The notes under the pieces were generated by a model. It saw only the letters and a program-made list of their open reading frames with translations. It had not been told where the DNA came from and ran no database searches. From a bacterium (GTDB taxonomy: Bacteria > Vulcanimicrobiota > Vulcanimicrobiia > Vulcanimicrobiales > Vulcanimicrobiaceae), in contig JAJYFL010000005.1 of the NCBI GenBank assembly GCA_021790935.1, positions 1-64,000 of the forward strand: a stretch of DNA of 64,000 nt, given 5' to 3'. Position numbers and translations under genes: made by a program. How positions within the stretch are numbered: position 1 is the stretch's first letter; each line of letters starts with the position of its first letter. This document shows positions 53,414 to 56,312 of the stretch, piece after piece.

Positions 53414-55489
53414 CTATGGCGTAGAAGCGGATGCGATGATCTGGGCGTAACGCGCGCTCGCCTCGGTCGGTACGCGGGTGAGGTTGGGATCGCGATCGAG
53501 GTCGATGTGGAATAGACCGAAATCGCTGTCGTCGTCGAAGGGCAGGCCCCACTCGCGGTTCGACGTGATGCTCCAACAGAGATATGCTTCGATCGGAACC
53601 CCTCTCTCCAAAGCGCGCCGCACCTGCGCGACGTGCTTCTCCAGATAGGCCGCGCGCGAGACCCCGTCGGCGCTGGTGACGCAGCCGTTTTCGACCACGA
53701 CGATCGGCTTGCCGGGGAACTGCTCCTGCGCCTCGCGCAAGATCGAATCCAGCACGTTCGGCCAGACGGGCGCGTTGGCATAGCGGCACTCGGCTGCCGC
53801 AAAGAGCCGGTGCAACTCCCCGGGCCATACCGACGGAACGCCCCAGTAGTAGTCCAGACCGACGTAGTCTAGCGTGCCCGCGCACTCGGCGGGGCACAAG
53901 AAGTGGGGCAGCTTCCCCGCCAGGCCGAGGTTCCACCAATTCGTGCCCAAGAGCGTGCTGAAGATTGCGAAAGATTTGCGCAGCCCGTCGAAGAGCTGCA
54001 GCGGCGAGCGCGTGGCGCTCAAGCGGCGCTCGCCGCGTAGCGTAACGAAGCGCACGCGCGCACGCTCCGAGCCAAAAATGTGCGCGGCGATGCGGCGCGC
54101 GAGATCGGGTTCCAGGCCGCGGTACCCTCCCGCGCCGTCCGGCATGCAGAGACCCTCGACGCCCGGGTGGATGCCGACGCGCAGCACGCCGCGCTTGCGT
54201 ATGTTCTGCAGCGATTTGTCGAGATCTCGCGCTCCCGCCTGCGCCGGCGGAAGGTTCGCGCCGGGATGCTTGAAGCCGCGCAGCACGCGATCGACGGCGT
54301 CGAGCAGCGCGCGGCTGCCAAACGCTATCGCGACCGCGAAACGCTGATCTTTCCCCCGGAGGCGCGTGAGCGTGAGGTCGCCGGCGGCGTACGGCGCAAG
54401 TATGACGTCGTCGTCGAAGACCAGATCGAGCTCGCCGCGCTGCAGCGCCGCTACGCCCTCGCTGCTCTCGCGGAAGAAGCGAAGCTCCGCGTCGGGGAAG
54501 CGGCCCGCCGCCTGCGCGGCCGTCGCCGAACCGGCCGTCACGCCGACGCGCCCCTTCCAATCCTCGAACGATGCGGGCAGCACCACAGCAACGGGATGCA
54601 GCGCTGCAAAGTGCGCGACCAGATACGGTTCGGAGAAGAGGGCGTGTCCCATGCGTTGCGGTGTCATCGTCAGCTGCGCGATGGAGAGATCGACTTCGCC
54701 CGACTCGAGGATTCGGTGCTGCGAGATCCGCCCGGCTTGACGTTGGGCCTGCTCCGGCGATCTCAGATGCGTGGCGTTGCGATCGGCGAGCCGTTGAAGC
54801 CAGCGCGGCAAGCCCAGAATCAGCGGATTCGTGCCGACCAGCGCTCCGGGACGCTCCTTGTGGATAGCCGCGCGCATACGCGCGTGCGCGCGGAAAAGGT
54901 TCGGAATGAGCTGCAGCACGGCGCCCATCTGCTGCTCGCCTGTGGCGTGCGGCTCCAACCCCGGCGGCATGGGGTAGGCTCGCATCCAGAAGCCTTTGAT
55001 GTAGCCGTAGACGAGCTGGTTGGGTTCGTTGATCGTGACGTAGTAGTCGATCAAGTCGCCCAGGCGCCGCGCGGCTTCGGAGGCGTACGCCTCCATGCGC
55101 GCGGGGAATCGCGCGTCGAGCATTCCGGCGCCGCCGCCGGCGGCCTCCACGTGCAGCGGCCAGGTGTTGTGGTGCAGCGTGACGACCGTCGCCATCTTCT
55201 TCTCACGCAGGTACGCAAGCACGTCGCGGTAGTGCGCGAACGCGGCATCGTCCCACTTCCCCGGTTCCGGCTCCAGGCGCGCCCACGAGAGCGAGAGGCG
55301 AAAGGCGCGGCATCCAAGACCCTCGGCGAGATCGGCGTCTTCGCGATAGCGGTTCCAGAAGTCGGTCGCGCGGCCTCGCGGCGTAAGGCCGCGCGCGCGC
55401 TCCCAGAGGTCGCGAATGTCGTCTTGCCCGGTGTACGCTTCGCACTGGTGATCGGCGGTGGCTACGCCGAAACGGAACGTTCGCTGCAT
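53414..55489 (-). CDS. GH1 beta-glucosidase-like enzyme with inserted, circularly permuted family-3 solute-binding domain
   Basis: A 691-residue protein. Residues 1-255 are the N-terminal part of a GH1 barrel: FRFGVATADHQCEAYTG, then the acid/base Glu155 in TINEPN. Residues about 259-410 match the second part of a SBP_bac_3 domain (LESGEVDLSIAQLTMTPQR, HALFSEPYLV, RVGVTAGSATAAQ). Residues about 423-490 match its first part (RKRGVLRVGIHPG, YRGLEPDLARRIAAHIFG). The order of the two parts is reversed relative to free binding proteins. GH1 then resumes (GTNWWNLGLAGKL, DYVGLDYYWGVPSV) with nucleophile Glu600 in VVENG. Both catalytic Glu are intact. No signal peptide is visible. Confidence 0.85.
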   Translation of the reverse strand: MQRTFRFGVATADHQCEAYTGQDDIRDLWERARGLTPRGRATDFWNRYREDADLAEGLGCRAFRLSLSWARLEPEPGKWDDAAFAHYRDVLAYLREKKMATVVTLHHNTWPLHVEAAGGGAGMLDARFPARMEAYASEAARRLGDLIDYYVTINEPNQLVYGYIKGFWMRAYPMPPGLEPHATGEQQMGAVLQLIPNLFRAHARMRAAIHKERPGALVGTNPLILGLPRWLQRLADRNATHLRSPEQAQRQAGRISQHRILESGEVDLSIAQLTMTPQRMGHALFSEPYLVAHFAALHPVAVVLPASFEDWKGRVGVTAGSATAAQAAGRFPDAELRFFRESSEGVAALQRGELDLVFDDDVILAPYAAGDLTLTRLRGKDQRFAVAIAFGSRALLDAVDRVLRGFKHPGANLPPAQAGARDLDKSLQNIRKRGVLRVGIHPGVEGLCMPDGAGGYRGLEPDLARRIAAHIFGSERARVRFVTLRGERRLSATRSPLQLFDGLRKSFAIFSTLLGTNWWNLGLAGKLPHFLCPAECAGTLDYVGLDYYWGVPSVWPGELHRLFAAAECRYANAPVWPNVLDSILREAQEQFPGKPIVVVENGCVTSADGVSRAAYLEKHVAQVRRALERGVPIEAYLCWSITSNREWGLPFDDDSDFGLFHIDLDRDPNLTRVPTEASARYAQIIASASTP

Positions 55490-55580: not shown

Positions 55581-56312
55581 ATGAGATTCAGCAATAAGAC
55601 GTGCATCGTAACCGGAGGCGGATCGGGTATTGGCCGCGCGACGTGCCTGCAGATGGCGGCGGAGGGCGGCCGCATCGTGGTCGCCGATCTGCACCAGGCG
55701 GCGGCGCAGGCAACCGTGGATCAGATTACGGCCGCCGGCGGGCAGGCGATCGCCGTTGAAACGGACGTCGGCAACTCGGCGCAGGTGCAGGTCGCCATCG
55801 CAAAGGCGCTTGCGGTCTACGGTTCGCTAGACGTGATCGTCAACGACGCGGCGATGATGACGTTCGCGCCGATCGTCGATATCGCGGAGGCCGATTTCTT
55901 TCACGTCATCACCACGAACCTCGGATCGGTCTTTTTCTTTGCGAAGTACGGCGCCCCGCACATGCCGCCGGGATCGGCGATCGTCAACATCAGCTCCGTG
56001 CACGCGCACGCAACGACGACGAACGTGGTGCCCTACGCCGCTTCAAAGGGCGCGATCGAGGCGTTCACGCGCGGCTTCAGCCTGGAGATGGAGACGCGCA
56101 AGATCCGCGTCAACTCCGTTGCGCCAGGTGCGGTCGACACGCCGATGCTCTGGAACAATCCCAACGTGAAGAGCGGCGTGGAAAAGGTGGAAGGCGCGAT
56201 CGGCAAGCCCGAAGACCTTGCCGAGGCGATCTGCTTCCTCGCTTCGGATGATGCGCGCTTCGTCAACGGGACCACGCTGGTCGTGGACGGCGGCCGCCTC
56301 GACATTTTGTGA
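55581..56312 (+). CDS. short-chain dehydrogenase/reductase
   Basis: A 243-residue SDR. Cofactor motif TGGGSGIGRAT, VNDAAM (variant of NNAG), serine in NISSVHAH, and YAASK with the catalytic Tyr and Lys. The C terminus LVVDGGRLDIL is typical. Substrate unknown. It is divergent from the GH1 gene with a 91-base gap, so they may share regulation, as in a sugar-related pair. Confidence 0.88.
   Translation: MRFSNKTCIVTGGGSGIGRATCLQMAAEGGRIVVADLHQAAAQATVDQITAAGGQAIAVETDVGNSAQVQVAIAKALAVYGSLDVIVNDAAMMTFAPIVDIAEADFFHVITTNLGSVFFFAKYGAPHMPPGSAIVNISSVHAHATTTNVVPYAASKGAIEAFTRGFSLEMETRKIRVNSVAPGAVDTPMLWNNPNVKSGVEKVEGAIGKPEDLAEAICFLASDDARFVNGTTLVVDGGRLDIL

Follow-up and report, generated by a model that had tools for sequence, protein, structure and literature searches.

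The window, a 64,000-nucleotide stretch of a Vulcanimicrobiaceae genome (contig JAJYFL010000005.1), carries a gene whose product combines a GH1 barrel with a family-3 solute-binding domain placed inside it (Table 1). The reading frame, coordinates and part boundaries given in the original prediction, which was made from the DNA letters, were correct to within a few residues. Homology with relatives begins at the methionine at 55489, and a divergent SDR gene starts at about 55581, about 92 bp from this ATG. An earlier start at 55675, preceding a hydrophobic stretch that resembles a signal peptide, was rejected because it overlaps the SDR gene and the homology begins only at Met 55489. No signal peptide is evident in the window protein, whose N-terminus has a much lower hydropathy than those of binding proteins secreted by E. 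coli.

Table 1. Features of the GH1 gene and its inserted binding domain (positions are those of the window; residues are those of the protein)
Feature	Position	Strand	Basis or remark
Whole gene, 691 aa	53414..55489	minus	single ORF; ATG at 55489, stop at 53414
GH1 barrel, first part, residues 1-243, strands β1-β5	54761..55489	minus	Pfam PF00232, AF2 model, conserved residues
Acid/base Glu155, NEP motif	codon 55025-55027	minus	end of β4; conserved residue
Insert, residues 244-495 (252 residues), between barrel strands β5 and β6	54005..54760	minus	alignment with insert-free sister GH1s; folds alone
Binding-protein C-terminal part, residues 260-409, comes first	54263..54712	minus	profile positions about 82 to end
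R279, in C-terminal part	codon 54653-54655	minus	mapping to E. coli ArgT, GlnH, HisJ
D360, in C-terminal part	codon 54410-54412	minus	mapping to E. coli ArgT, GlnH, HisJ
Lobe 2 of binding domain, residues about 291-385	54335..54619	minus	cleanly missing in several relatives
Linker between native C- and N-termini, residues 410-421	54227..54262	minus	short in window protein; comparison with relatives
Binding-protein N-terminal part, residues 422-490, comes second	54020..54226	minus	sequence and profile matches
GH1 barrel, second part, residues 496-691, strands β6-β8	53417..54004	minus	Pfam, AF2 model, structural matches, conserved residues
Nucleophile Glu600, VENG motif	codon 53690-53692	minus	end of β7; conserved residue

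Pfam recognizes GH1 in two pieces in the window protein, with an SBP_bac_3 match between them, and the assignment to GH1 is clear (PF00232, E = 1.2e-38; 133.1 bits against a cut-off of 22.6). In an AlphaFold model of the whole protein, built from a 20-sequence alignment (pLDDT 82.5, pTM 0.78), the barrel strands are in order, and the insert exits the barrel after β5 and re-enters before β6. The β5–α5 loop borders the active site in GH1 enzymes. The barrel superposes on solved GH1 β-glucosidases, including BglB (4hz8) and Td2F2 (3wh8), with Z of about 36 over about 380 residues (VIA-align) at 24–27% identity, and it shares with them both catalytic glutamates and other conserved −1 subsite residues. 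It differs from the usual GH1 β-glucosidases in its extended β5–α5 region, which bears the insert, and in the replacement of Asn by Asp in the [ND]-Y-Y motif after β6, which is also seen in insert-free sisters. Q15, H107, N154, E600, W639, E646 and W647 are present in all 42 insert-bearing rows of the alignment and the acid/base E155 in 41 of them, which agrees with the earlier claim that both catalytic Glu residues are kept. The sole insert-bearing row without Glu at 155 is a lobe-2-less locus (L121, 5701–7482) that has Ala instead; the enzyme may be inactive, or the change may come from the alignment or from a sequencing error, and the record also contains masked bases.

The inserted domain belongs to solute-binding family 3, with its C-terminal part preceding its N-terminal part. 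Its match to SBP family 3 (PF00497) scores 32.8 bits within the whole protein, against a cut-off of 26.4, and 44.7 bits after rotation. As read, the insert aligns to canonical amino-acid-binding proteins in two stretches of reversed order (E = 2.9e-11 for PDB 1xt8), whereas the rotated insert matches 1xt8 in one continuous stretch (residues 5–212, E = 8.3e-15). The homolog from Chlorogloeopsis, when rotated, likewise matches SBP_bac_3 in a single stretch (1–130 of 132, 102.5 bits). A profile of five canonical proteins (GlnH, HisJ, ArgT and two cyanobacterial proteins) aligned in two stretches with 38 of 49 inserts, and the order was reversed in every one of the 38. In the best-scoring inserts, position 82 of the 253 in the profile is where the part placed first begins and the part placed second ends, and the permutation point does fall in one loop, as had been proposed. 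A rotation scan of three inserts placed the optimum, each time, at an order other than the as-read one. The halves are swapped, the native termini are joined and the match becomes contiguous once rotated, all of which characterize a circular permutation. The Pfam pieces, the reversed stretches and the continuous match after rotation together uphold the original reading of a GH1 barrel split by a permuted family-3 domain.

The original prediction also depended on the insert folding as a binding domain, and this it does when modeled alone with AlphaFold (pLDDT 87.4, pTM 0.81). The best PDB matches of the insert model are amino-acid-binding proteins, many of them ligand-bound (Z about 14 over about 150 residues). 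Foldseek aligned 244–263 columns of the model to two tandem binding proteins, 6h30 and 4q0c, which we read as the pattern expected if the C-terminal part fits the first copy and the N-terminal part the second. With the family-3 amino-acid-binding proteins (PF00497; LAO, GlnH, AncCDT-1 and CjaA, 1xt8) the insert has in common the two-lobed fold, seen in its AF2 model and PDB matches, and the backbone-anchoring Arg and Asp (R279 and D360). It differs from them in being circularly permuted, in having no evident signal peptide and in sitting inside an enzyme. The canonical role of such proteins, that of an exported ABC transporter receptor in canonical order, does not fit these features or the reversal in 38 of 38 inserts. 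On sequence and models, the window protein is predicted to be a cytoplasmic, catalytically competent GH1 β-glycosidase with a complete circularly permuted family-3 (amino-acid-type) domain at β5–α5.

The linker varies among relatives. In most it is longer than in the window protein and contains the motif R-x-[ST]-[LI] (GRRSTLGDI in cyanobacteria, NRKTIAHIG in Vulcanimicrobiota); the motif is seen in L089, L092, L099 and most other inserts and is lost in the window's genus (54227–54262). Locus L083 (1928–4375) has an extra roughly 60 residues within the N-terminal part of the binding domain. A leftover duplication of helix α2 at the two ends of the insert, which would mark duplication followed by deletion, is suggested by eye in cyanobacterial sequences (ERALL/ERLPLL), but in the profile the overlap is no more than 1–4 positions, and the duplication is not claimed.

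Ligand-site residues were mapped onto E. coli ArgT (LAO), in which we take R77 to bind the α-carboxylate of the ligand and D161 its α-amino group. The Arg equivalent to R77 (R279 in the window protein) occurs in all 44 non-Verrucomicrobial inserts (Vulcanimicrobiota 25/25, Cyanobacteriota 14/14, Chloroflexota/Proteobacteria 5/5), and is missing in four of the five Verrucomicrobial inserts. The Asp equivalent to D161 is found in 24/25, 14/14 and 4/5 of the same groups, respectively (42/44 outside Verrucomicrobia), and in 5/5 Verrucomicrobia. Because these two residues are conserved, the insert should bind an α-amino acid or a derivative in most lineages. In place of the ligand-contact Asp of LAO position 11, most inserts have His, Lys or Arg. 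Naming an exact ligand from the contact residues was rejected, since they resolve no further than "α-amino-acid-like." The top structural match of the insert, SocA, is tied with others within 1 Z.

Genomic context was also considered. In the window, glnA lies directly downstream of the GH1 gene. Glutamine as the ligand was rejected as a general conclusion from this neighbor because other lineages have other neighbors; among the maps closely examined, a glnA-sized ORF directly downstream on the same strand occurs only in the window's genus (L062). No other PF00497 protein was found in the window genome at E = 0.001, leaving the permuted insert as the only family-3 domain found. Genes for GMC oxidoreductases that weakly resemble cholesterol oxidase are met repeatedly, no more than 6 kb away, in Cyanobacteriota, Chloroflexota and Vulcanimicrobiota (upstream genes of L091, L092, L093, L094 and L108; L085, 8102–9880; L107, 2173–5124; L137, 1203–3005), and one adjoins an insert-free enzyme too. 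Some of these loci also have 3-β-HSD-like, P450, patatin, α/β-hydrolase or acetoacetate decarboxylase-like genes. The GMC neighbors hint at a common lipid- or sterol-like glycoside substrate or pathway.

A survey of similar architectures, suggested with the original prediction, found them to be widespread, in at least four phyla: Vulcanimicrobiota (Eremiobacterota), Cyanobacteriota, Chloroflexota and Verrucomicrobiota, together with one MAG labelled Proteobacteria. Hosts include Nostoc, Fischerella, Chlorogloeopsis, Calothrix, Luteolibacter and Prosthecobacter. Within the class, 54 of 117 genomes match at E = 1e-20 or better and about 52 carry the architecture, the other two being weak matches that resemble ordinary GH1s. 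Judged by BLAST pattern, the 80 loci kept from the genome collection comprise about 62 with a full insert, 8 without lobe 2, 5 insert-free and 5 broken or partial. No match at E = 1e-30 was obtained when a plasmid collection was searched with the Chlorogloeopsis protein. A misassembly at 54020–54715 had been named as what could undo the prediction. The same ORF is intact in many genomes among 60 relatives. Dozens of independent assemblies hold it as an intact single ORF in the same order, Chlorogloeopsis fritschii PCC 6912 and Fischerella sp. PCC 9431 among them, and no point in favor of an artifact was found. Misassembly, or a chance joining of a binding-protein gene and a GH1 gene, was rejected, and we regard its probability as negligible.

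A tree built from the GH1 parts groups the five Chloroflexota-type sequences that have no insert in a single clade (95/78). When the tree is rooted on distant GH1s, this clade is nested within the insert-bearing clade, which would mean loss of the insert. Because the outgroup branch is long (2.25), this tree does not distinguish a gain of the insert with a single later loss from its gain by an ancestor that lacked it. Lobe 2 has been lost at least four times in the tree while other parts of the insert were kept, three times in Vulcanimicrobiota and once in Verrucomicrobiota. That lobe 1 was retained at each loss points to a structural tie between it and the barrel. Natural variants of this kind, with lobe 1 but no lobe 2, occur at L084, L113, L116, L121, L122, L124, L126, L020 and L141. 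The repeated loss of lobe 2 and the absence of the Arg from 4/5 Verrucomicrobia indicate that this enzyme family can do without ligand binding. They suggest that catalysis can persist without ligand-driven movement and that the insert also serves, or has come by drift to serve, a function independent of ligand. In the window's genus, dN/dS is about 0.17–0.35 for the insert and about 0.06–0.10 for GH1 (small counts); since it is at most 0.35 in both lobes, the insert, like GH1, is under purifying selection. In two cyanobacterial genomes, the canonical proteins found to be closest stand alone as binding proteins of normal order, one with an evident signal peptide and the other with a comparable hydrophobic stretch further in.

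The best explanation of the whole is, in our view, a ligand-gated GH1 enzyme in which closure of the permuted domain is passed to the barrel; we consider the case for it evenly balanced. The permutation would have joined the native termini by a linker and opened the domain within lobe 1. Both connections to the barrel would then run via lobe 1, at one point beside the β5–α5 loop, with lobe 2 hanging free. A small α-amino-acid-like ligand would bridge R279 in lobe 1 and D360 in lobe 2 and close the lobes, and closure would be transmitted by the two lobe-1 linkers to the β5–α5 loop at the active site and alter the rate of hydrolysis. Closure of lobe 2 could either pull on this loop or release it. 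Lobe 1, docked on the barrel, would be structural as well, and in lineages without lobe 2 or the Arg the enzyme would be locked and unregulated. The evidence is consistent with gating by an amino acid, given the conservation of R279 and D360 and the two linkers by which lobe 1 is attached; ligand gating of the glycosidase is plausible but unproven. Weighing against it are the losses of lobe 2 and of the Arg, the replacement of the Asp of LAO position 11 in most inserts, and a dN/dS that is higher for the insert than for GH1.

The same losses can be read as those of a structural or substrate-shaping module, such as a lid or wall of the aglycone site or an oligomerization surface, in which ligand binding is a remnant that exerts no control over catalysis. 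Lobe 2 has gone repeatedly while lobe 1 stayed, the Arg is gone in most Verrucomicrobia, and under the distant-GH1 rooting the nested insert-free clade implies that even the whole module may be losable. The near-complete keeping of both ligand anchors elsewhere, across large divergence, is however hard to explain without binding, and in the window's genus purifying selection acts on lobe 2. We regard such a module as less likely than gating, though quite possible. The binding domain might also capture a substrate or product, for instance a sugar–amino acid conjugate, and feed it to the active site, which would be channelling and not allostery. SocA binds deoxyfructosyl-amino acids and glucopine, and the insertion lies at a loop bordering the active site, both of which would suit such a scheme. 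The SocA score is not separated from those of ordinary amino-acid binders, however, and nothing in the genomic surroundings pointed to Amadori or opine metabolism, the recurring neighbors being GMC oxidoreductases; channelling is unlikely.

The ligand-gated enzyme would, in its fullest form, be a natural allosteric glycosidase, a permuted amino-acid receptor in a GH1 barrel that links amino-acid status to glycoside breakdown in the cytoplasm and sets a precedent for engineered switches. We advance this tentatively, as falling just short of an even chance. If true, it would mean that in Cyanobacteriota and Vulcanimicrobiota amino acids control the hydrolysis of glycosides in the cytoplasm, and it would be evolution's own version of a design so far built by screening. 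Natural controls are at hand in the full-insert, lobe-2-less, Arg-less and insert-free homologs, and whether domain insertion creates allostery in nature is directly testable with the genes of the named cyanobacterial strains.

Among natural glycan-cleaving enzymes, the lytic transglycosylase MltF has a family-3 binding domain reported as its regulator. That domain is N-terminal and unpermuted, the protein is periplasmic and its catalytic domain is unrelated. In the literature covered, which lay mostly outside subscription journals, GH1 with a binding-domain insertion or a natural permutation was not found, and the cases recovered were engineered. In R-ncp-iGluSnFR1, circularly permuted GltI is inserted into a red fluorescent protein (PMC6335823); it shares with the window protein a circularly permuted amino-acid-binding protein within another domain, but is man-made and its output is fluorescence. 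A xylanase inserted into the xylose-binding protein is stimulated by xylose (PMC4536891), and the maltose-controlled β-lactamase RG13 is another engineered example (listed in PMC6335823). These two also join a binding protein to an enzyme by insertion, which in their case gives ligand-dependent activity, but there the enzyme lies inside the binding protein, whereas here the binding protein lies inside the enzyme. Because such engineered precedents switch, permuted or inserted layouts are able to do so (PMC6335823; PMC4536891), and we read the window protein as nature's counterpart to engineered switches in which a permuted domain is spliced into another protein.
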